From assembly GCF_963677155.1 (NCBI RefSeq), contig NZ_OY781884.1:914001-978000 (forward strand): DNA of 64,000 bases. Direction: 5' to 3'. Each line of letters begins with the position of its first letter. Within the stretch, counting starts at the first letter, position 1. A program made the translations under genes and the position numbers. This DNA comes from an uncultured Draconibacterium sp. (lineage in GTDB: Bacteria; Bacteroidota; Bacteroidia; Bacteroidales; Prolixibacteraceae). The notes beneath the pieces are model-generated. The model saw only the letters and a list, made by a program, of their open reading frames with translations, had not been told where the DNA came from and ran no database searches. Of the stretch, positions 2,939 through 63,247 are shown in pieces.

Positions 2939-4219
2939 TTAGTGGCTGTATGGAATCGTAAAGAAGAATGTTGATCCTATATTTTCTTCACTTTCGGCCC
3001 AAATTTTTCCACCTAATAGTTCTACATACGCTTTTGCAATGGATAATCCCACCCCGGCTCCTTCATAATGACGTGAGAGCGTTTCATTCTCTTGTCGGAA
3101 TTTCTCGAAAATTATTTGCACATGTTCTTTCTGAATGCCCACGCCGGTATCTTTTACAAAAAATTCAAGGAATTCGCCTTTTTTTTCGTATCCAAATTCA
3201 ATGGATCCAGAGTGAGTGAATTTTAGAGCATTTTTCAGAAGTTTAGTCAAAACAATCTCGATTTTTGTTTTGTCGGTTTTAACTACGGCATCTGAATATT
3301 TCAAAGTTTTCTTTGCTGAAAACTTAATCTTTTTTTGATCCGCTTCCGATTTAAAAAAGTTATATGTCTCTTCTATCTGTTCATTTAAATTTGTTTCAGA
3401 AACAGATATTTTCACCAGTCCTGCTTCTATTTCCGAAATTTCAATAATATCATTTATAACACAAAGCAGACGGGCACTGCTTTTTTCGATCAAACATATA
3501 TATTCTTCTTGTAATTCAGTAGAAAGATTAGGTTCTCTGAGTAAATCAGAAAAACCCAAGATGCCGTTTATAGGTGTACGTATTTCGTGGCTCATATTCA
3601 TTAAGAATGCATATTTCAAGCGGTCGCTTTCTTCTGCTCTGTTTTTAGCCTCAATCAGTTCATCAATCATGCGTTTCTTGCTGGTAATATCCTGAATTAT
3701 GGAAAGCAAAAAATTGGAATTTTCTATTTGTACCGGATGGAAAATGACTTCAACATCCTTTATAACTCCGTTATACAACCGGTGCCTGAAATTGAAATGT
3801 GACTGTTTTTTTGCAATGGCTTTCCTCATTTCCAGGAACATTTCGCGTGGTGTTAGTACGTTTATTTGCGAAATATTATTGGTACACAATACCTGGTGTG
3901 CCAAGCCATAATAACAGCAAGCAGCCTGATTTGCATCTTTTATGTCACCGGTTTCCGGGTCAATTAGCAACATAACTGATGGGTTTGCACGAAAAAAGGA
4001 ATTGTACAGACTTTCTTTCTGCTGTTCTGCTTTTTTCAATGCCAAGGTCAATTCATTAGCCTGCTTTTTAAGTTTATTCCGATAAAAGCTAAGCCCATGA
4101 ACCGCTTTGAAATTTTTTGAGAGCAACAAGCGTAGAACATCTGCAACAGGTAGCCTTTTTCTCATATTTTCCGGCTCCTGGCAAATATTCGTAAGTTTTG
4201 ACTTGCTCGTTTGTCCCAT
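2939..4219 (-). CDS. PAS-domain sensor histidine kinase, last gene of the gvp operon
   Basis: 426 aa with no obvious membrane segment. A coiled coil (about 48-75) leads to a PAS domain (about 70-180, ending IIQDITSKKRM). The dimerisation/phosphoacceptor domain has the H-box FLMNMSHEIRTPINGILGF with His211. The ATPase domain has an N-box LLKNALKFT, G1 DTGVGI, an F-box FEKFRQ and G2 GAGVGLSIAKAYVELLGG. No receiver or output domain is attached and no response regulator lies beside it. It starts 15 bp after dnaK on the same strand, so it is probably co-transcribed with the gas-vesicle genes. A cytoplasmic kinase made together with the vesicles could give feedback on assembly or buoyancy (inference). 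Confidence 0.88.
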   Translation of the reverse strand: MGQTSKSKLTNICQEPENMRKRLPVADVLRLLLSKNFKAVHGLSFYRNKLKKQANELTLALKKAEQQKESLYNSFFRANPSVMLLIDPETGDIKDANQAACCYYGLAHQVLCTNNISQINVLTPREMFLEMRKAIAKKQSHFNFRHRLYNGVIKDVEVIFHPVQIENSNFLLSIIQDITSKKRMIDELIEAKNRAEESDRLKYAFLMNMSHEIRTPINGILGFSDLLREPNLSTELQEEYICLIEKSSARLLCVINDIIEISEIEAGLVKISVSETNLNEQIEETYNFFKSEADQKKIKFSAKKTLKYSDAVVKTDKTKIEIVLTKLLKNALKFTHSGSIEFGYEKKGEFLEFFVKDTGVGIQKEHVQIIFEKFRQENETLSRHYEGAGVGLSIAKAYVELLGGKIWAESEENIGSTFFFTIPYSH

Positions 4220-4234
4220 TTCTCACCACACTCT

Positions 4235-6022
4235 TTAGTACTCACCAGCCGACAGGCATGCGGAGCTCAGGTTATTCATAGCTTCTTCTATGTTGTCAAA
4301 ATCAGGATTTTCATGCGCTAATTTTAGCTTTTCCAACGCATTTTCAATCGCATTTTTTTTCTCAAGGGGTAAAGTGTTGCCAAATTCTTTCAGTTGGATT
4401 TCTGTTTGATAAATTTGCATGTCGGCCTTATTGCCTGTGACAGTTCTATCCTTCAGCGCCCGATCTTCCTGCATATGTTGCCTGGCTTCTTCCTTTATCC
4501 GGCATATTTCTTCTTCCGAAAGACCGGAAGACGCTTCTATGCGAATTTGCTGTTTTTTTTCGGTTAGCCGATCAACGGCAGTCACACTCAGAATTCCATT
4601 GGCATCAATGTCGAAGGTTACTTCAATTTTCGGTATTCCCCTGTGGAAAGGCGGTATTTCATCAAAGTGGAACCTCCCGATGCTTTTATTTTGACTGGCC
4701 ATTGGCCGTTCGCCCTGCAAAACATGAATTTCGACTGAAGATTGGTTGTCTGTTGCAGTGGAAAATACTTCAGACTGCCGTGTAGGAATAGTTGTATTCG
4801 CTTCTATCAGCCGTGTCATTACACCACCGCGGGTTTCTATTCCTAACGAAAGAGGCGTAACATCCAGCAGCAATACATCTTTTACTTCTCCGGAAAGGAT
4901 TCCACCCTGTATAGCCGCGCCAATAGCAACAACTTCGTCGGGATTGACCCCACTAGAAGGTTCCTTACCGAAAAAGTCACGAACCATTTTTTGAACAGCC
5001 GGAATGCGGGTTGATCCGCCAACCAAAATCACTTCATCCAGGTCGGTGGCTTTTAGCCGGGCATTTTTAAGCGCTAACTGACAAGGAGCAATAGTCGATT
5101 GAAGCAGGTTCGCAATCAGTTGTTCGAATTTGTCGCGGGTAAGTTTTCGAACCAAATGTTTGGAAGTGCCATCAACCAACATAATATATGGAAGATTGAT
5201 ACTGGTTTCGGATGCGCCCGACAACTCAATTTTTGCTTTTTCTGCCGCTTCTTTCAACCGCTGAAGAACCATTGGATTGCGAAGAAGCTCAACGCCTTCA
5301 TCATTTTCAAATTCATCAGCCAACCAGTTAATAATCGCCTGGTCAAAATCGTCACCCCCAAGGTGTGTGTTTCCGTTGGTTGACTTCACGTCGAAAATGC
5401 CATTCCCGATTTCAAGTATCGAAATGTCAAAAGTCCCTCCTCCCAAATCAAAAACAGCCACTTTAATATTATCATTCCGTTTGTCTAACCCATACGCCAG
5501 GGCTGCAGCAGTTGGCTCATTAATGATGCGACGAACAGATAGCCCGGCAATTTTACCAGCCTCGTTGGTAGCCTGACGCTGTGAGTCGCTAAAATAAGCC
5601 GGGACTGTAATTACTGCTTCACGAATTTCCTGCCCAAGATAATCTTCGGCTGTTTGTTTCATTTGCTGAAGAATCATGGCTGAAATTTCCTGCGGAGCAT
5701 ATTGTTTCCCGGAAATATTTACATGAGGTGTATTATTTTCGCTGTTTATAATCTGGTAAGGGAACCGCTGAATTTCCTTCTCAACCTGGCTGTAAGTTTC
5801 GCCCATGAATCGTTTGATGGATGATACCGTGTTTGCCGGATTCGAGATGGCCTGACGTTTTGCCGAAGCGCCTACTTTCCGTTCACCATCCGATGTAAAA
5901 CCCACGACAGAAGGCATCGTCCGTAGCCCTTCGCTATTTACTATTACAACCGGTTCGTTTCCTTCCATAATAGCCATACAGGAACTTGTTGTCCCCAGAT
6001 CGATTCCTAAAATTTTACCCAT
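4235..6022 (-). CDS. dnaK: DnaK-type Hsp70 chaperone of the gas-vesicle operon
   Basis: 595 aa, shorter than housekeeping DnaK (about 635-640), the shortfall being in the C-terminal lid and tail. The ATPase domain is intact: [11 protein letters not shown] at the start, [12 protein letters not shown], and the adenosine-binding region [14 protein letters not shown]. The interdomain linker [19 protein letters not shown] is canonical, followed by a beta-sandwich substrate domain. The acidic EEVD-like tail of general DnaKs is absent (it ends LSAGEY). No grpE or free-standing dnaJ is adjacent, but a GvpF-J-domain fusion is encoded in the same operon and could be its cochaperone. Family assignment is certain; a dedicated role in gas-vesicle assembly is inferred from position. 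Confidence 0.93.
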
Positions 6023-10038: not shown

Positions 10039-12198
10039 TTATATTTTTGTTTCGTTTTGTTTTAGTACCAGTTGGATAGCTTCCTGAAAGTGTTTTTCGG
10101 CAATGCTGACATTCAATGTATTTTCATCAGATGGGTGACAGGATTTGTCGATCATCTGCCTGATAGCCAGCATAGCGGCTTTCCTGCAAATAAATTCGAT
10201 ATCCGATCCGGTAAGCCCATCTGTTTCTAAAGCCAGTTTATCCAGATTTACTTTTTTAGCCAACGGTTTTTTGCGGGTGTGAATACCGAATATTTTTTCG
10301 CGGGTTTTAGCGTCGGGCAATGGCACTTCAAACAATAAATCGAACCGACCACTACGTAAAAGCGCAGGATCAATTAAATCGATCCGGTTAGTAGCAGCCA
10401 AAACGATTACGCCTTTCAGGTCTTCAATGCCATCCATTTCTGTCAGGAATTGGCCAATCACCCGATCTAATACTCCGGATTCCGAGCTATCGTTGCTGCG
10501 CCGCGGTGTAAGGCTGTCAATTTCGTCGAGAAATAAAATGCACGGCGATGCCTGTTTAGCCATACGGAAAAGCTCGCGAACTCCTTTTTCTGATTCGCCA
10601 ATGTACTTACTCAAAATCTGTGGCCCTTTTACCGAAATAAAATTAATCCCGCTTTCGCTGGCTAATGCTTTGGCCAGATAAGTTTTTCCGGTTCCGGGTT
10701 TTCCGTATAGGATGATTCCTTTCGGCGGCTTGGTATCGGCCCTTCTAAACAAATCGGCATATTGCAGCGGCCATTTAACCGTTTCTTTCAACGCTTCTTT
10801 AATTTCATCGAGTCCGCCAACATCGTTCCATTTCACATCGGGGACTTCCACAAAAACTTCCCTGATGGCTGAAGGTTCCACTTCCTTCATTGCATCCAGA
10901 AAATTGTCCATCGTAACTTCAAGCGACATCAAAAGTTCGTAAGGGATTTCAGACATCGCAAAATCGATTTTCGGGAGAATTTTCCGCAGCGCTGTCATTG
11001 CGGCTTCGCGTGCCAGGGCTTCCAAATCAGCTCCTACAAATCCATGTGTAATCTCAGCGAGTTTTTCCATATCTACATTCTCTGAGAGTGGAATCCCCCT
11101 GGTGTGGATGTGCAGTATTTCAAGCCTCCCCTTTTTATCGGGGATGGAGACTGATATTTCGCGATCGAAACGTCCTGGCCTGCGAAGTGCTGGATCAATG
11201 GCATTCGGAATGTTTGTTGCACCAATCACAATTACTTTTCCCCGCGATTCCAAACCGTCCATCAACGACAGCAACTGGGCCACAACACGTTTCTCAACCT
11301 GTTTTTCGCCCCCCATGTCTTCACGTTTGGGTGCAATGGCATCTATTTCGTCGATAAAAATAATGGCGGGTGCATGTTTCTGGGCTTCCTCAAAAATGTT
11401 ACGGATACGGCTTTCGCTTTCGCCATAGAATTTACCCATGATTTCAGGCCCCGAAATGTTAATAAAATAAGCATCGGTTTCATGTGCAACAGCCCTTACT
11501 GTCAGTGTTTTTCCGGTTCCGGGAGGACCGTAGAGAAAAACGCCTTTAGGCGGCTGAACTCCCAACCGTTCAAAAATCTCCGGATATTTCAGGGGCAATT
11601 CAATCATTTCGCGGATACGCTGCACCTGGTTCCCTAATCCCCCAATATCTTCATACGAAATCCGGCGTTTCGTTTCCCCAGCCTCCTTAGTCAACTCAAG
11701 CTGAAAACTGGTATCAGGATGTATCAGCACCACGCCTTCGGGGCTGGTTGAAGTTATAGTATAATCAACCGAACGCGCCCCAAACAAGTTGGCGCGTACT
11801 TTATCGCCTTTTGCAACCGGCAAGCCATTGATTAACGAACCAATATACCTGGCATCGTCAGTCTTAAATTTCGAACCGGATTTTGTGTCGGGTTTGAGTT
11901 TTATTTTTGTCGCCTGACGGCAACCCGTTTTTGCAATTTTCACTTTTTCGTCGATTCCCGCCTGACAGTTTTCACGGGTAATCCCATCAATTTGGATAAT
12001 ACTTTTGTCGCGGTCATCAGGATAACAGGGCATTATTTTTACCGGGGTGGAACGTTTGCCTTCGATTACAATCACATCGCCACTTTCCAATCCCACCAGC
12101 TTCATGTCTTTTGGATCGATCCGCGCAATTGCCCGCCCTACGTCTTTGACCAGCGCTTCTTTTACACGCAGTATTATTTCGTTTTTAGTTGTAGTCAT
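10039..12198 (-). CDS. CDC48/VAT-like tandem AAA+ ATPase
   Basis: 719 aa with the full p97/CDC48/VAT architecture: a double-psi-barrel N-domain (about 7-90, with ALVKDVGRAIARID) followed by a second N-subdomain (about 100-175); D1 with Walker A GPPGTGKT at 224-231 and Walker B IIFIDEID at 279-286; D2 with Walker A GKPGTGKT at 499-506 and Walker B ILFLDEID at 554-561. Arginine-finger regions (RRPGRFDREI and LLRSGRFDLLFE) are present in both. These hexameric unfoldases extract proteins from complexes. The family is typical of archaea and eukaryotes and patchy in bacteria, where it often accompanies gvp clusters. It lies 10 bp upstream of the gvpF-J fusion, so it probably remodels or disassembles vesicle proteins (inference). 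Confidence 0.93.
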   Translation of the reverse strand: MTTTKNEIILRVKEALVKDVGRAIARIDPKDMKLVGLESGDVIVIEGKRSTPVKIMPCYPDDRDKSIIQIDGITRENCQAGIDEKVKIAKTGCRQATKIKLKPDTKSGSKFKTDDARYIGSLINGLPVAKGDKVRANLFGARSVDYTITSTSPEGVVLIHPDTSFQLELTKEAGETKRRISYEDIGGLGNQVQRIREMIELPLKYPEIFERLGVQPPKGVFLYGPPGTGKTLTVRAVAHETDAYFINISGPEIMGKFYGESESRIRNIFEEAQKHAPAIIFIDEIDAIAPKREDMGGEKQVEKRVVAQLLSLMDGLESRGKVIVIGATNIPNAIDPALRRPGRFDREISVSIPDKKGRLEILHIHTRGIPLSENVDMEKLAEITHGFVGADLEALAREAAMTALRKILPKIDFAMSEIPYELLMSLEVTMDNFLDAMKEVEPSAIREVFVEVPDVKWNDVGGLDEIKEALKETVKWPLQYADLFRRADTKPPKGIILYGKPGTGKTYLAKALASESGINFISVKGPQILSKYIGESEKGVRELFRMAKQASPCILFLDEIDSLTPRRSNDSSESGVLDRVIGQFLTEMDGIEDLKGVIVLAATNRIDLIDPALLRSGRFDLLFEVPLPDAKTREKIFGIHTRKKPLAKKVNLDKLALETDGLTGSDIEFICRKAAMLAIRQMIDKSCHPSDENTLNVSIAEKHFQEAIQLVLKQNETKI

Positions 12199-50429: not shown

Positions 50430-51413
50430 ATGATAGAAGCAGTAGGTGCCTGGGGATTAATCATAGGGGCCATCGTTTTACTTTTTATAATTCTCTATTT
50501 TATCCCGATAGGATTATGGTTTTCAGCACTGGTATCCGGCGTACGAATTTCATTGCTACAGTTGTTCTTAATGCGTTTCAGAAAGGTACCTCCGGGAGTG
50601 ATTGTGCGCGCAATGATTGAAGGAGCCAAAGCAGATGTTGCTTTAAGTCGCGATGCATTGGAAGCCCACTATCTGGCAGGCGGTCATGTAGCACGAGTTG
50701 TACATGCTTTGGTGTCAGCAGCAAAGGCAAACATCGAATTACCTTTTAATATGGCAACCGCCATTGACCTTGCAGGTCGCGATGTTTTTGAGGCCGTTCA
50801 AATGTCGGTAAATCCGAAAGTGATTAACACGCCACCTGTAACTGCTGTTTCAAAAGATGGTATTCAGCTCATTGCAAAAGCAAGGGTAACTGTTCGCGCC
50901 AACATTAAACAATTGGTTGGAGGTGCAGGAGAAGAAACTGTACTTGCGCGTGTAGGTGAAGGAATTGTTTCGTCAATCGGATCATCACATTCACACAAAG
51001 CCGTTTTAGAAAATCCGGACTTTATTTCGCGTGTAGTACTTGAAAAAGGATTGGATGCAGGAACAGCATTCGAAATACTATCGATTGATATTGCCGACAT
51101 TGATATCGGTAAAAACATTGGAGCAGTTCTTCAAATGGATCAGGCAGAAGCCGATAAAAACATTGCTCAGGCAAAGGCAGAAGAGCGCCGTGCTATGGCA
51201 ATTGCGCTTGAACAGGAAATGATTGCGAAAGCACAGGAAGCCCGTGCAAAAGTAATTGAAGCTGAAGTTGAAGTACCTTTGGCTATTTCGGAGGCCTTCC
51301 GTAGTGGAAACCTCGGAATTATGGATTATATGAAATACAAAAACATAATGGCCGATACCACTATGCGTGAATCGATTGCCGATGAAGACAAAAGCAAATC
51401 AGACGATCAATAA
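50430..51413 (+). CDS. floA: Flotillin-like protein FloA
   Basis: 327 aa UPF0365/FloA. One N-terminal hydrophobic segment ([19 protein letters not shown]), then a family-typical run: [40 protein letters not shown], the SPFH-like region and an Ala/Glu-rich coiled coil ([20 protein letters not shown]). It forms membrane microdomain scaffolds. Paired with nfeD upstream and closed by a strong terminator. Confidence 0.95.
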
Positions 51414-51438
51414 AACGTATTAACGATAAAAATAGTAA

Positions 51439-51467
51439 GCTCGTTACAACTTGTAACGGGCTTTTTT
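51439..51467 (+). terminator. Rho-independent terminator of floA
   Basis: GCTCGTTAC-aactt-GTAACGGGC (51439-51461) forms a 9-bp stem with one wobble, followed by TTTTTT (51462-51467), 26 bp after the floA stop. Confidence 0.85.
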
Positions 51468-51587
51468 AATGCTGATGTTTCTAAAAAAATTTCCAAAGAT
51501 TAAGCGTTTGTTAAAATATCTGTCTTTTAAAACGATTTTAGAACCAATTTGATGCCAGAACATGTTTTTCAGCATATCTTTGTAGCA

Positions 51588-51671
51588 TAAGTTTTAGTTC
51601 ATAAGTTTAGGTTTGATTAGTTTTATTGGTTTAGTTAGTGGAAAGGATGAGTGTTGACTCATCCTTTTTTT
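51588..51671 (+). ncRNA. Tandem small RNA, copy 1
   Basis: A -7 box TATCTTTG at 51575-51582 predicts a start near 51588. The body (from AGTTCATAAGTTTAGG at 51595) is nearly free of C and has no open frame. The terminator stem GGATGAGT-gttg-ACTCATCC (51645-51664) is followed by seven T. Its stem differs from the other copies by paired changes (A-T where others have G-C or G-T). Upstream it has a TTTG (51548-51551) and lacks the TAAC repeat of copies 2-5. Confidence 0.75.
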
Positions 51672-51784
51672 ATTTTCAAAACCAACTTCCACTGCCTTCA
51701 AAAATTAGCTTTCAGTACGAGCATTCACCCAATAGATTTTATTTAAGATCGAATAGATTAAAAATATGTTATAAAACACATTTT

Positions 51785-51800
51785 TTAACATTCGGGTAAC
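51785..51800 (+). promoter_or_regulatory. 11-bp TAAC direct repeat before small-RNA copy 2
   Basis: TAAC at 51786-51789 and again at 51797-51800, starts 11 bp apart, ending 22 nt before the -7 box TATCTTTG (51822-51829). The same arrangement recurs at 52453/52464, 52723/52734 and 52968/52979 before copies 3, 4 and 5, always with the same 22-nt distance. This is the format of OmpR/PhoB-family sites that replace a -33 element. Confidence 0.6.
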
Positions 51801-51834
51801 CTCCGGTTTACATACGCACCTTATCTTTGCAGCA

Positions 51835-51917
51835 TAAGTTTTAGTTCATAAGTTTAGGTTTGATTAGTTTTATTGGTTTAGTTAGTGAAAAGGATGGGTG
51901 TTGACCCGTCCTTTTTT
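51835..51917 (+). ncRNA. Tandem small RNA, copy 2
   Basis: -7 box TATCTTTG at 51822-51829, predicted start near 51835. The core is identical to copy 1 over AGTTCATAAGTTTAGG through TTTAGTTAGTG. Terminator GGATGGGT-gttg-ACCCGTCC (51892-51911) plus six T. A conserved block of about 60 bp upstream (ATGTTATAAAACACATTTTT, then the TAAC repeat) is shared with copies 3 and 5. Confidence 0.75.
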
Positions 51918-52488
51918 ATTTTATACCAATCAGAACCATAACACTACAGTAAATCCCCTACCCCAGGAATTCATATATCCGCAAGCCGATTATTCATCTT
52001 AGCCACTTGTCAATAAGAAGACACCTAAATCAGTATACATTCTATAAAAGTGTATTTTGAAAATGCGCCTGTTTCAGAAAATACTGAAAGATGATCTTGT
52101 GTTAAGTCGATTCTGGATCTCTGGACATCATTACGTCCGTTGACTGATGGATACACTAATCAATATATATCTAAAAGATGCTGAAATACATTCTGAATGA
52201 TGTAACGAGGTTCATATAGGCTTAACACCAGTTCGCAAATAAAAAAATCGGAATATTTGAACGTTCTTAATACGTATTTAACATCTAAATCAACACAAAC
52301 GTTCTACCAAAGGCCTGTAATTACGGGTCTTTTTTCAAGACAACAAGCTACTCTTATTCCTGATAGTGTGACACTTATAACTCCACCCAAATAAATTCAA
52401 TCGATTTGATTGATGATTCATAAAGTTAAAATATGTTATCGAGCATATTTTTTAACATTCCATTAACTTCCTGTCCAGGGATTCACCT
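51918..52488. other. Spacer between small-RNA copies 2 and 3, with an orphan terminator
   Basis: 571 bp without a protein gene. The only clear structure is the terminator at 52312-52335, listed separately. The last 60 bp are the conserved upstream region of copy 3, including its TAAC repeat at 52453-52467. The large gap compared with the 245-270 bp pitch of the other copies suggests one or two lost or diverged units. Confidence 0.5.
52312..52335 (+). terminator. Orphan terminator inside the small-RNA array
   Basis: GGCCTGT-aatt-ACGGGTC (52312-52329) with wobble pairs is followed by TTTTTT. No gene precedes it within 390 bp, so it may end an unrelated or diverged small RNA. Confidence 0.5.
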
Positions 52489-52501
52489 TACATTTGTAGT
52501 A

Positions 52502-52584
52502 CAAGTTTAGTTCATAAGTTTAGGTTTGATTAGTTTTATTGGTTTAGTTAGTGAAAAGGATGGGTGTTGACCCGTCCTTTTTTT
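52502..52584 (+). ncRNA. Tandem small RNA, copy 3
   Basis: -7 box TACATTTG at 52489-52496; predicted start near 52502. The first bases read ACAAGTTTAG rather than the ATAAGTTTTAG of copies 1, 2 and 4 (shared with copy 5); the core is otherwise identical. Terminator GGATGGGT-gttg-ACCCGTCC (52558-52577) plus seven T. TAAC repeats at 52453-52456 and 52464-52467. Confidence 0.75.
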
Positions 52585-52771
52585 ATTTCCAGAGACCAAA
52601 CCATTATATCATTTTGACACTATCGATATCATTATTATTGCCTTTTAATACCCACAGCACGTATCAACACAATAGACAACACCTATAGCCCATAAAAAAT
52701 AACAATACGATATTCGATTACTTAACATTAGATTAACCTCTATTACGAATAAACCCCTTACATTTGTAGCA

Positions 52772-52854
52772 TAAGTTTTAGTTCATAAGTTTAGGTTTGA
52801 TTAGTTTTATTGGTTTAGTTAGTGAAAAGGATAGGTGTTGACCTATCCTTTTTT
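52772..52854 (+). ncRNA. Tandem small RNA, copy 4
   Basis: -7 box TACATTTG at 52759-52766; predicted start near 52772. Core identical to the others. The terminator stem is GGATAGGT-gttg-ACCTATCC (52829-52848) plus six T: both sides of one pair changed relative to copies 2, 3 and 5, so the stem is conserved by compensation. TAAC repeats at 52723-52726 and 52734-52737. Confidence 0.75.
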
Positions 52855-53016
52855 ATTTTTCACCCCAAAAAGCAGATCAATCAAGACATTCAGTACCGAT
52901 TGTAAATCTCCCGATAGATTTTCCCTAAGTTGTAATAGATTAAAAAGATGTTATAAAACACATTTTTTAACATTCACATAACCTCCGATTCAGATTTTCA
53001 CCTTACATTTGTCATA

Positions 53017-53099
53017 CAAGTTTAGTTCATAAGTTTAGGTTTGATTAGTTTTATTGGTTTAGTTAGTGAAAAGGATGGGTGTTGACCCGTCCTTTTTTT
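53017..53099 (+). ncRNA. Tandem small RNA, copy 5
   Basis: -7 box TACATTTG at 53004-53011; predicted start near 53017. Body as copy 3. Terminator GGATGGGT-gttg-ACCCGTCC (53073-53092) plus seven T, ending 4 bp before the convergent cbiB stop. TAAC repeats at 52968-52971 and 52979-52982, with the conserved upstream block. Confidence 0.75.
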
Positions 53100-53102
53100 A
53101 TT

Positions 53103-54065
53103 TTATACCAACCATAGAATGAAAACTCCGATAAAGAGCAATGTTACTGCGAAATTGATAAAACAGGCTTTGTAAACATCGTTCGTTGATACGGGTCTTG
53201 GATTCGCACCAATAAAAGGCTTTTCAACTAATTTCCCGTGATAATAGTTTGGTCCACCAAAACGACAATTGAGTATACCGGCCAGCGCTGCCTCAGGATA
53301 TCCGGCATTTGGACTTGAATGCTTTCTGCCGTATTTAAATATAAATTTGATTGCCCGAAAGTTAAAAGCTACTACAGCCATTAAAATTGCAGTCAATCGT
53401 GCAGGAATAAAATTTAACACGTCATCGAGCTTAGCAGCAAAAAATCCAAAATCTTTATAACGTGTATTTTTATAACCGATCATCGAATCGAGTGTATTCG
53501 CCATTTTATAAGCCAACATTGCAGGCACTCCTCCTATGAAATAGAAAAACAAAGGAGCAATTACACCATCACTGAGGTTTTCAGCCAGGGTTTCCAATAC
53601 GGCAGTTCTAATCTGATTCTCGTTTAACTGTGCCGTTTCGCGACCAACGATCATCGATAACTGTTGGCGCCCGGCTTTCAATCCGTCCTTCTCCAATTTA
53701 AGGATTACACGTAATGCTTCCTGAATAAGCGCCCGATTAGCCAATCCATAGAAAACCAGAATAGAAGAAACAACAAAGTACAGGTTTTGATAGGCAGATA
53801 AAACCGTTAACCCCAGTTTTAAGATAAAGTAAGTGGTAAAAATCAGACAAGAAGCCAGAAGTGCTCCTTTTAGCTTTCTGTTTTTGCCCCGGTTAAATTT
53901 TGCTTCTCCTACAGAAATTGCTTTGCCAAACAAACGGATAGGATGCGGCAAAAAATGTGGATCGCCAATAAGACAATCAAGTGCAAAACCGGCCAGAAGC
54001 GGGACTATTATTTCAAAATGTTCATTCAATTTCCATCGATTTATAAATGTATTCCATATTAACAT
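53103..54065 (-). CDS. cbiB: Adenosylcobinamide-phosphate synthase CbiB/CobD
   Basis: Up to 320 aa. LAGFALDCLIGDPHFLPHPIRLFGK is the conserved start region; a TTG at 54029 just before it is an alternative start to ATG 54065, which overlaps cobQ by 44 bp. Four to five membrane helices, NLSDGVIAPLFFYFIGGVPA, MANTLDSMIGYKNTRYKDFG and a C-terminal SPNAGYPEAALAGIL are family hallmarks. It attaches aminopropanol phosphate to adenosylcobyric acid. Last gene of the cob run. Confidence 0.93.
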   Translation of the reverse strand: MLIWNTFINRWKLNEHFEIIVPLLAGFALDCLIGDPHFLPHPIRLFGKAISVGEAKFNRGKNRKLKGALLASCLIFTTYFILKLGLTVLSAYQNLYFVVSSILVFYGLANRALIQEALRVILKLEKDGLKAGRQQLSMIVGRETAQLNENQIRTAVLETLAENLSDGVIAPLFFYFIGGVPAMLAYKMANTLDSMIGYKNTRYKDFGFFAAKLDDVLNFIPARLTAILMAVVAFNFRAIKFIFKYGRKHSSPNAGYPEAALAGILNCRFGGPNYYHGKLVEKPFIGANPRPVSTNDVYKACFINFAVTLLFIGVFILWLV

Positions 54066-56840: not shown

Positions 56841-57085
56841 CTACCATGGTTGATTCAATTCCTACCTTAGTTGATTGTCATTCAACCATAGTTGATTCAA
56901 TTTCTACCTTGGTTGATTACCATCCAACCATAGTTGATCCAATTCCTACCTTAGTTGATTGTAATCCAACCATAGTTGATCCGATTCCTACCTTGGTTGA
57001 TTGCTACCCAACTATAGTTGATCCAATTCCTACCTTGGTTGATTACTATCCAACCATAGTTGTTTCGATTCCTACTTAGGTTGGC
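56841..57085. repeat. Twelve GTTG boxes at exact 21-bp spacing (42-bp tandem repeat)
   Basis: GTTGAT begins at 56849, 56870, 56891, 56912, 56933, 56954, 56975, 56996, 57017 and 57038; degenerate boxes (GTTGTT, GTTGGC) continue at 57059 and 57080, every step exactly 21 bp. Two alternating half-units give a 42-bp unit (CCATAGTTGATCCAATTCCT, then ACCTTGGTTGATTACTATCC). TGGTTG...CAACCA pairs lie inside the unit. The array fills the gap between cobT and cobS; it has no terminator and no coding role is likely. The rest of 56797-57162 shows nothing else. Confidence 0.85.
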
Positions 57086-60771: not shown

Positions 60772-62703
60772 CTATTTAAATTTATACGTAATACTTAACC
60801 GGTAAGCTATGCCAGGCATAGCATAACCCAAACTTGCCTGATAATCGGTATCCAGCAGATTGTTGATCATTCCGTTAATTAGAATTTGATTATGACCGTC
60901 AATTATCCAGTTGTAACCAAGCGCCATATTCATCAGAAAATAAGCAGCCAGAATATTATCGTCTTCCTCATCGGAGAATTGCTCGTCGGTATAACTCCCA
61001 TCCACCGTAAAATCAAATTTGTTATAAGTCACCGTTGTGAAAAAATTACCGGCGTGTAACGGCACGTATTCCAGCTGACGGTTAAGTGCTCTCGTATTGT
61101 TATTCGATTCTTTTCGCTGAGCAGAAGTATAAGTATAATTGAGGCCCGAATTTGCTTTCAATCCAAAAATGCGATAATTCCAATCAGTCATAAACTCCAG
61201 TCCTTTGCTTTGTACATTTTGCACATTCGCAGCATACCATTTTGAACCACCGTTTTTCCATAATATCCATTCGTCAACATCCATTAAAAAAGCATTCAGT
61301 TTTACATTTCCTGAGAGATCTCCATCACAATAACTCCATTTTGATCCCAATTCGTAGCTCATTCCTTTTTCGGGATTCAGATCAGGATTTCCGCCCGGCT
61401 CCCAAAAGCGATCATTAAATGTTGGAACACGATAGCTTCGAGCAACATTTCCGGTAAACCGAAGTACATACTTTTCTTTTGAAAATGCCAGGTAATTTAG
61501 TCCAAACGAAGGCGTAAAAGGCACATCAAAATTGGTAACATAACCGTAGCGCAAATTTAGTGTTGCGGTTAAACGGTTAAAGAAACGTTGATAGTACGAT
61601 GCATATAAATCTACCCGATCCTCGTGTTTCAACGCTTCAGAATAAGTATAAACCGTGGGATAAATACGGGTAGCTTTTGCTCCGGCTTTGTAACTGGCCT
61701 GAGGAGAAAAATCGTGTTCGATAAAGGCTTCGCCAATTATGCGTTGGGTTGAAATGGTATCAGAAGTAATTTTGTCGCTAACAGCATTATCGTATACATA
61801 CCCACCGTTAATTTCGAATTTGAGTGGGTTCTTTCGGTTTTTATAACCGGTCCAGATGCGCACGTGATCATCTTTATACTCTTCTTTCGTTTCATGGTTG
61901 GAATAATTTACCCCCATATTTTGTTGTACATTGTGCCAGTCTTTCTCTATCCAAACATTAAAAACATAGAATTCGTTAGGATTAAATCGATAATTTAATT
62001 CCTGTATTAATCCCATATTCTTGATTTCAGCATTTCGCTGCCGATCTTTAATACCTATTTTCTGAGTTTCAAAGTCTTTTAGAGGATTCATAAATGGAAA
62101 ATCGTTCTTCTTAAAGTAATAATAAGCACGTGTAACTGCTTCAAACTTGCCGTTTCCCAAAAACAGTTTTGTGCCGTAAAGCTGCTCTCCAAATGAACCG
62201 TTTGCAACGCGGGCTTCAGCCCTAAAACCATCAGTCCAATTGTTTTGCAGACCCAAATGAATGGCCCCTCCAATACTCCCCGATCCGTTTACCGAACTGG
62301 CACTACCAAACTGAACACCAATATTATCGAATAGATAAATGGGTATGTTATTTACATTAGAATGGCCCAGCGTGAGCGAATTGATGTTTATTCCGCCAAA
62401 ATTAAAACTGGTATGATCGGGTGCCGATCCGCGAATACGAATAGTGGCCAAGCCACCTGCATTAGTCTTAAAAGCAATGGGCAAACTACGCGAAAGCAAT
62501 TGTTCCAGATTGCCATCCTGCGCCAGCGAAAACTGTTTGGCATTAATACGTTCGATTTTTGCTCCCGACTGGTATTTCTGAAGCTTTCCATAACTCACTA
62601 CCTCTTCTACCTGCACCGTATCGAACACATTAAAATATTGCTGCGCCACTACACTTTGAGCCAGTCCCCACAATATGATCCCTATAACTACAAACCTCCT
62701 CAT
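60772..62703 (-). CDS. btuB: BtuB-type TonB-dependent cobalamin receptor
   Basis: 643 aa. Signal peptide (GIILWGLAQSVVAQ), plug domain (NLEQLLSRSLPIAFKTNAGG; GSASSVNGSGSIGGAIHLGL) and a barrel ending in an aromatic residue two from the end (SITYKFK). Unlike most Bacteroidota receptors it lacks the N-terminal carboxypeptidase-like domain, as is usual for BtuB. The gene directly follows a cobalamin riboswitch and precedes the btuG-like gene. It takes up B12 or other corrinoids across the outer membrane. Confidence 0.92.
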   Translation of the reverse strand: MRRFVVIGIILWGLAQSVVAQQYFNVFDTVQVEEVVSYGKLQKYQSGAKIERINAKQFSLAQDGNLEQLLSRSLPIAFKTNAGGLATIRIRGSAPDHTSFNFGGININSLTLGHSNVNNIPIYLFDNIGVQFGSASSVNGSGSIGGAIHLGLQNNWTDGFRAEARVANGSFGEQLYGTKLFLGNGKFEAVTRAYYYFKKNDFPFMNPLKDFETQKIGIKDRQRNAEIKNMGLIQELNYRFNPNEFYVFNVWIEKDWHNVQQNMGVNYSNHETKEEYKDDHVRIWTGYKNRKNPLKFEINGGYVYDNAVSDKITSDTISTQRIIGEAFIEHDFSPQASYKAGAKATRIYPTVYTYSEALKHEDRVDLYASYYQRFFNRLTATLNLRYGYVTNFDVPFTPSFGLNYLAFSKEKYVLRFTGNVARSYRVPTFNDRFWEPGGNPDLNPEKGMSYELGSKWSYCDGDLSGNVKLNAFLMDVDEWILWKNGGSKWYAANVQNVQSKGLEFMTDWNYRIFGLKANSGLNYTYTSAQRKESNNNTRALNRQLEYVPLHAGNFFTTVTYNKFDFTVDGSYTDEQFSDEEDDNILAAYFLMNMALGYNWIIDGHNQILINGMINNLLDTDYQASLGYAMPGIAYRLSITYKFK

Positions 62704-62796
62704 TCACAACTTTTAAGGAGCTTTGGATAAATCAGTGAAAAATACGGATATATTTCTCAAGCTTTTATCCCGAAGCTTAATTTATTACTGTTGAAT

Positions 62797-62975
62797 TTAT
62801 GGCAGGTCTTCTGGCTCATCCCGGTTATTGAAGCCTTCCCTCCCGATTCCATCGGGAAGTGGCGTATGGTTCAATAACACGATCCGTTTAACTACGGATA
62901 GGACTTACAGCTGCGGGTACAGCTCCGGTTTCTCACCGGATTCCCTTTTCATCTTATTTCTGAAACAGAAACTTT
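62797..62975 (-). promoter_or_regulatory. Cobalamin (AdoCbl) riboswitch
   Basis: On the minus strand the order of elements is a leading AAAAGGGAATCCGGTGAG, AAACCGGAGCTGTACCCGC (conserved core), TGTAAGTCCTATCC, a variable stem around CCCGATGGAATCGGG, and the B12 box AGCCAGAAGACCTGCCAT (62816-62799), in the canonical order. It ends about 95 nt before the btuB ATG. It should switch off btuB and the downstream uptake and synthesis genes when B12 is plentiful. Exact ends are approximate. Confidence 0.93.
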
Positions 62976-63247
62976 AAGAACCTAAATTCAGTGGCAAAGA
63001 TAATCACATTTTTTAACAAGCATTATTTTATTGAAAAAGATAGCCCGGAAAATACAACTACCTGTTAACAGCTAGCACACACACCACTCAGGGCTCTAAT
63101 ATACTGCCCATTACACAGATACAGGAAAGTTTAATTATGCATTAAGAATGATTTTGCATACATCTGAATATTCTAAAAATGAACCGACGATTAAACGACA
63201 ATCAATGATACTTTCACTCCAAGTGGGGGCATCACTAAGTATTCGTT

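Follow-up and report, generated by a model that had tools for sequence, protein, structure and literature searches.

Five small RNA units lie between floA-type and cbiB-type genes

The window, a stretch of 64,000 nucleotides from an uncultured Draconibacterium sp. (contig NZ_OY781884.1, positions 914,001 to 978,000 of the forward strand), contains five closely related units on the + strand, flanked on one side by a gene of floA type (50430-51413) and on the other by a cbiB-type gene on the - strand (53103-54065), both named from our own reading of the sequences. Sequence inspection, alignment of the core and a covariance model placed the units, each comprising a core and a terminator, at 51588-51673, 51835-51919, 52501-52585, 52772-52855 and 53016-53100, and their size of 84-86 nt depends on the boundaries that we chose. 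The model recovered all five in the window, with the next-best match at E 0.74. The initial annotation had described five tandem units of about 83 nt; the number and the approximate size hold, but the arrangement is only loosely tandem, with start-to-start spacings of 247, 666, 271 and 244.

Forty-eight consecutive nucleotides (positions 6-53 of unit 1) are invariant in all five units, and this core contains a single C and five TTAG motifs, which agrees with the identical, almost C-free segment of about 45 nt with some five UUAG repeats that had been noticed beforehand. The TAnnTTTG box and the intrinsic terminator ascribed to every unit were likewise found in each. Read from the sequence, the promoter box precedes a conserved TTCAT by 14-15 nt and has the form TATCTTTG in units 1 (51575-51582, +) and 2 (51822-51829, +) and TACATTTG in units 3 (52489-52496, +), 4 (52759-52766, +) and 5 (53004-53011, +), while each 3' end forms a strong terminator hairpin with a T run. 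Folded alone, the 48-nt core reached about -2 kcal/mol, equal to its shuffles (z 0.01 and 0.54). The large gap of the array holds a weak candidate for a decayed unit (52277-52336, +), composed of TTTAACATC and a terminator-like hairpin, which lacks the core and was missed by the covariance model.

No ORF of at least 60 aa lies within 51414-53102. A short peptide was considered for a 14-codon TTG frame common to the five units and was rejected because the second RNA type lacks this frame. Elsewhere in the window, a 77-codon ORF (56846-57079, +) is made of repeated (P)TLVD / PTIVD-like units and is apparently a short tandem DNA repeat.

Paired changes maintain the terminator stem

In a set of 16 type-I copies, drawn from several genomes, 99% of the stem cells pair. 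Eight cells were changed on both sides, compared with 3.1 after shuffling, a value that beat all 500 shuffles, and the covariation score was also above all 500; the number of pairs with changes on both sides (2) was unremarkable, being reached by 391 of the 500. In a wider set of 33 diverse sequences, 85% of the stem cells pair, both-side changes occur in 10 of 11 pairs (6 of 500 shuffles reach 10) and no shuffle of 500 reached the covariation score. The paired changes that the initial annotation had taken as a sign of selection on RNA structure are thus real. Since the covarying stem is the terminator, they show selection on an RNA terminator rather than on any additional fold.

The family is conserved in the genus and extends into the order

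The genome that contains the window (5.27 Mb, one contig) has six copies in total. A 32-nt core pattern, with up to 3 mismatches allowed, matched at five sites (reversed control, 0), and a sixth, diverged solo copy (C1:4742038-4742109, 82% identical) is flanked by genes that we read as tonB-domain and ECF-sigma genes. In a BLASTN comparison of 61 genomes, the family, in either type, was present in 36 of 37 genomes of the genus, our own included, compared with two weak matches among the 24 genomes of other genera. Eight of the 36 (G012, G018, G019, G021, G025, G027, G028 and G035) have the diverged type or fragments only, among the matches listed. Of the 27 same-genus genomes examined, 21 have floA next to the array, and the other six lack it in the flank that was analysed.

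An exact 23-mer retrieved at least 120 stretches assigned, among the matches listed, to Draconibacterium, Maribellus, Mariniphaga, Sunxiuqinia, Mangrovibacterium, Prolixibacter and MAGs in a named collection; as these stretches were selected by the 23-mer, its invariance among them carries no information. The loci analysed supplied 213 distinct sequence contexts for the exact core. Our terminator finder detected a terminator in 208 of them, and in these TAnnTTTG stands 12-15 nt before TTCAT in 197 and 7 nt before it in 2, with none in 9.

The covariance-model search of relatives was extended to 393 genomes of the order, which we take to be Bacteroidales as defined in GTDB (NCBI places Draconibacterium orientale in Prolixibacteraceae and Marinilabiliales). 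A first model, R1, built from 49 sequences, found relatives in 29 of the 393 at E<=1e-3. A further model, R3, reached 67 of the 393 at E<=0.01, against a chance expectation of about 4 provided that its rough E-values hold, and this count is partly circular because R3 was built partly from R1 matches. Many distant copies, read by eye, share UUUUUUCAUA[A/G]GUUUAGGUU or a near form followed by a terminator, and one locus (L400) carries three of them in a row. At another locus (L302), two ORFs of 449 aa with identical first 70 residues start at 11166 and 12816 (+), less than 2 kb apart, and are perhaps duplicated transposase genes.

The promoter boxes, the covarying terminators, the conservation of units between diverged spacers and the maintenance of arrays in the genus lead us to conclude that the five units are almost certainly real small RNA genes, whose transcription we infer.

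A direct repeat upstream of the sRNAs is shared with the rprX promoter

Units 2 to 5 carry a direct repeat with an 11-bp period, TTAACAT-N4-NTAACYT, at a distance of about 60 nt ahead of TTCAT, which we propose as an RprY box. It reads TTAACAT/GTAACCT before unit 2 (51785-51802, +), TTAACAT/TTAACTT before unit 3 (52452-52469, +), TTAACAT/TTAACCT before unit 4 (52722-52739, +) and TTAACAT/ATAACCT before unit 5 (52967-52984, +). By eye, no clear TTAAC repeat precedes unit 1, and the solo copy carries TTTAACACCATTTAACA. A strict form (double TTAAYV) was found upstream of 65 of 138 dereplicated copies and is absent from the remaining 73. None of 138 stretches taken farther upstream contained it, and shuffling gave a mean of 0.54.

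Scanning the whole genome for TTTAACATNNTTTAACA with at most 1 mismatch returned six sites (reversed control, 0). One belongs to the solo sRNA and another to the rprX promoter, about 40 nt before rprX; of the remaining four, one precedes an L244 gene, one is close to a putative exporter (L246) and two fall within ORFs (L242 and L243). The regulator beside the rprX-promoter site scored 389.5 bits against the NCBIfam RprY cut-off of 370, and the histidine kinase gene directly upstream of this RprY gene was named by no RprX model. At the L244 site, TCTAACATCTTTTAACA (G000:C1:677573-677589) occupies the stretch 64-80 nt ahead of a gene whose protein has a signal-peptide-like N terminus, a further candidate for control by the putative regulator of the TTAACA box.

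Within the genus, 30 rprX loci were fetched, 3 of which were not readable. GTTAAATA[A/T]TGTTAA is present in the rprX promoter of all 27 readable loci, ahead of the promoter box and the start, these promoters being close orthologues and not independent observations. Outside the genus, where 24 genomes were surveyed and 23 gave a match, a similar element was found in the rprX region of 12 of 26 rows, without a matched control and with some row starts that could not be placed. These rows belong to six families, our own among them (f1 2/3, f30 2/5, f106 2/4, f43 2/2, f8 3/3 and f96 1/2). The element is missing in 14 of the 26 rows, including those of f80, f56 and f63 and three paralogous rows. 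The rprX box has the opposite orientation to those of the sRNAs, and two genomes (G273 and G414) have sRNAs with the box and an rprX region in which we found none.

TTAACA repeats with an 11-bp period resemble PhoP/PhoB boxes. A Pho-box reading was dropped because our scan of the 19 kb surrounding the best pstB match, which is itself below the TIGR00972 cut-off, detected no box. Direct repeats of 10/11 bp are, in addition, typical of the whole OmpR/PhoB class, and base-pairing sRNAs could be controlled by another OmpR-family regulator for which rprXY is merely a fellow target. This alternative is supported by the class-wide occurrence of such repeats and by the lack of an RprY binding motif in the available text of the RprY literature (PMC6032018, PMC3646045). 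However, the box-free 19-kb region speaks against PhoB, as far as a pstB match below the cut-off allows, and the element recurs before rprX in the six families, so that we regard another regulator as rather unlikely. PMC6032018 presents RprY as an OmpR/PhoB-type regulator and RprX as its kinase partner in other Bacteroidetes. Taken together, the box data point to control of the sRNAs by RprY, which we consider fairly probable, with binding to the box as the step that we infer.

The core is predicted to pair preferentially with SusC translation starts

Forty-seven genes of the genome score above the TIGR04056 cut-off for SusC. Start regions were picked by our signal-peptide rule for 46 of them, one start (L429) being doubtful, and a partial match (1256814-1259339) was left out. 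As controls we used the starts of 599 ORFs from 918 kb of the same genome, from which one was excluded as SusC while one SusC (in L282) remained. Core I paired with the 46 SusC starts at a mean duplex energy of -17.5, compared with -15.0 for 239 signal-peptide-like genes (p 4.2e-5) and -14.7 for the 359 remaining genes (p 4.7e-6). The SusC-minus-control difference of -2.48 exceeded that of 30 shuffled cores (0.00 +/- 0.46, lowest -0.85), and shuffled targets paired worse in 35 of 46 SusC. L322 and L324 hold the strongest predicted SusC partners of core I.

The diverged core II behaved similarly (-16.1 vs -13.5, p 5e-5; shuffled targets worse in 36 of 46), its SusC-minus-control difference of -2.57 being near the lowest of its 30 shuffles (-0.60 +/- 0.78, lowest -2.23). 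When the start codon was removed (-35..-1), the preference weakened for core I (p 7e-4, shuffled targets beaten in 29 of 46) and for core II (p 0.011, 27 of 46), so pairing with the start-codon region contributes to the signal.

Exact complements of 7 to 11 nt near the starts of the 599 genes showed no excess over 100 shuffled cores. Long targets were also rejected: a near-complete complement of a 22-nt part of the core, with up to 3 mismatches, occurs nowhere else in the genome. Other same-genus genomes yielded two near-complements located in leaders (L047 and L048), which are suggestive single cases. An assumption-free search for leader motifs placed the sRNA-complementary AAACCA, AACTAA, CAATAA, AAACCAA and ACTAAAA near the top, most top motifs being unrelated. 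Within the window, a strong predicted partner of the core (-25.2 kcal/mol) is the start region of a receptor-like gene (62689-62738, - strand; gene start 62703). Just upstream of this gene lies a cobalamin riboswitch (62784-62999, -; 96.3 bits).

The idea of the initial annotation that the C-free segment is an mRNA-pairing seed therefore gains statistical support, since SusC receptor starts are the preferred partners by duplex energy, but the count of exact complements did not bear it out. Base-pairing sRNAs could instead have their main targets elsewhere, the SusC signal reflecting the leader composition of secreted-protein genes. Leaders near the starts are A-rich and G-poor, the start codon adds to the duplex energy, and strong predicted partners exist among other genes, some of which match the predicted pairing scores of SusC. 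Yet neither the signal-peptide control nor the shuffled cores reproduced the SusC signal, and we find this reading doubtful. We consider it reasonably likely that SusC mRNAs are a main target class, which the RNAs would repress.

CsrB titrates CsrA, with copy number acting as dosage, and by analogy the exposed UUAG-rich strand might act as a sponge for an RRM-type, RbpB-like RNA-binding protein, a second role suggested at the outset. The five UUAG of each core, the variation of the repeat number between paralogues and the two RRM proteins encoded in the genome (G000:C1:4896716-4896928 and 236428-236637) would fit such a role, as would the account, in PMC11697453, of RbpB binding and counteracting FopS in B. 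thetaiotaomicron. Titration seems improbable to us, because the whole 48-nt core is invariant, TTCATAAG included, which is more than repeat content needs, and because dinucleotide-matched shuffled cores lose the SusC preference.

Copies of the RNA occur on viral contigs and in prophage-like regions

Two same-genus prophage-like regions contain copies with their own terminator. The copy in G008 (L037:5122-5198, -) has core identity over 32 nt, and the one in G024 (L038, near 5279-5316, +) is 89% identical over 38 nt. Both are convergent with a gene that we read as an integrase gene, and in G008 this gene follows a tmRNA gene. Among viral contigs, 49 contain the 16-mer TTCATAAGTTTAGGTT, 24 of which share one other sequence context. 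Model R3 was run on 14 viral contigs and detected the RNA in eight at E<=0.05 (L179, L180, L185, L187, L188, L197, L203 and L221), four of these eight being in the R3 training set and L203 being almost a duplicate of L185. A gene read as an integrase gene is again convergent with the RNA in L179 and L188. A core-like element directly follows a tRNA in L187 (192-266, +; tRNA by Rfam match) and, by eye and without an R3 score, in L222 (near 3440-3520, -). BLASTN of phage and plasmid records gave no match, or matches of 29 to 36 bases (E 0.3-1) to Staphylococcus and Streptococcus phages.

The multiple copies and their presence on phage-like contigs and in prophage-like regions could suggest a mobile or selfish repeat and not a regulator, a reading made very improbable by the recurrence of floA beside the array in the genus, the retention of the terminator in 208 of 213 copies and of the promoter box in 199 of those 208, and the ORF-free interval.

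Comparison with described small RNAs

We scanned 42 sequences against Rfam, comprising the window, 14 loci with variants, 19 R1 loci and 8 viral contigs. At gathering score, no family matched these RNAs, and the only matches were tRNA, tmRNA and the cobalamin riboswitch of the window; the RNAs nevertheless resemble the published FopS sRNAs and may act in a similar way. No FopS-named family was among the matches to the array at E<=5 in the Rfam copy that we used. The best match below gathering score, sraA, lies on the opposite strand of four of the five units (32.3 bits vs a gathering score of 56, E 0.012), where it coincides with the antisense of the terminators, and was taken for chance. Among the papers listed in our literature searches, we found no account of this sRNA family in Prolixibacteraceae and no link between RprY and an sRNA.

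OmrA and OmrB of enterobacteria are tandem paralogues under an OmpR-family two-component system that act on TonB-dependent receptor mRNAs in a Hfq-dependent manner. The present RNAs resemble them as tandem paralogous sRNAs with putative OmpR-family control and TonB-dependent receptors as predicted targets, while differing in phylum and sequence, Hfq dependence being a feature of OmrA/OmrB. LhrC RNAs are multicopy and partly tandem, are controlled by a stress two-component system and pair with surface-protein mRNAs through C-rich seeds. This organization is similar to the one described here, where the control is proposed and the pairing predicted, whereas the present seed region is almost free of C. 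The Listeria sRNAs LhrC1-7 are named in PMC11697453.

The same paper describes FopS of B. thetaiotaomicron as a family of 14 members in which a terminator accompanies a single-stranded 5' seed, reported at 12-15 copies per genome and also present as a copy in a phage. FopS represses SusC translation starts, the RRM protein RbpB counteracts it, and bile salts induce it, possibly via an unknown regulator (PMC11697453). Like FopS and GibS, the present RNAs are multicopy paralogues (six in their own genome), with a single-stranded, conserved 5' seed followed by a rho-independent terminator, a canonical sigma-ABfr-type promoter, predicted pairing with SusC mRNA start regions, a copy in phages and RRM proteins in the genome. 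In contrast, they are longer (84-86 nt, against about 65 and 70), have no Rfam match at gathering score, and in many copies carry the TTAACA direct-repeat box shared with rprX. The array adjoins floA, whereas the FopS members comprise 9 intergenic RNAs, 4 antisense RNAs and 1 from a 3' UTR. Our family thus matches FopS in build and, by prediction, in target class, the comparison being with the published description of FopS.

A proposed RNA output of RprXY

Sequence evidence supports the genes and their conservation, the box shared with rprX and the preferential complementarity. We propose that the five units are multicopy trans-acting sRNAs of about 85 nt that consist of a C-poor, unstructured 5' seed region and a terminator hairpin. 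RprXY would probably control them via the TTAACA-type direct repeat, some 60-70 nt upstream of the core, and appears to act through this element on its own promoter as well. The seed would pair with translation-start regions of mRNAs, chiefly the mRNAs for SusC-type TonB-dependent receptors, and block ribosome entry, so that receptor synthesis would fall under envelope stress. An RRM-type RNA-binding protein may modulate these sRNAs, as RbpB does for FopS. For RprY control and SusC mRNAs as a main target class jointly, we estimate a probability of about 0.55, the two being taken as linked; the alternatives weighed above overlap with this joint claim and with each other.

In a broader and much more tentative reading, which we think unlikely to hold in full, an sRNA superfamily across Bacteroidales would constitute the RNA arm of an autoregulated envelope-stress system, RprXY, with many copies of anti-start-codon RNAs repressing SusC receptors as a class. 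FopS would then be its Bacteroides branch and RprXY the missing activator of FopS under bile stress, and temperate phages would carry mimics beside their integrase that adjust the receptors of the host.

Only recently has sRNA control of polysaccharide receptors been reported in Bacteroides (PMC11697453). A FopS-like build is now seen in other families, where RprXY is the candidate regulator and the repeat a candidate operator, and the question of the FopS regulator thereby becomes testable. If our proposal is true, RprXY would gain an RNA output, with a logic similar to that of OmpR with OmrA/B, and a kind of sRNA control so far described in gut Bacteroides probably has a variant in this relative of Draconibacterium.
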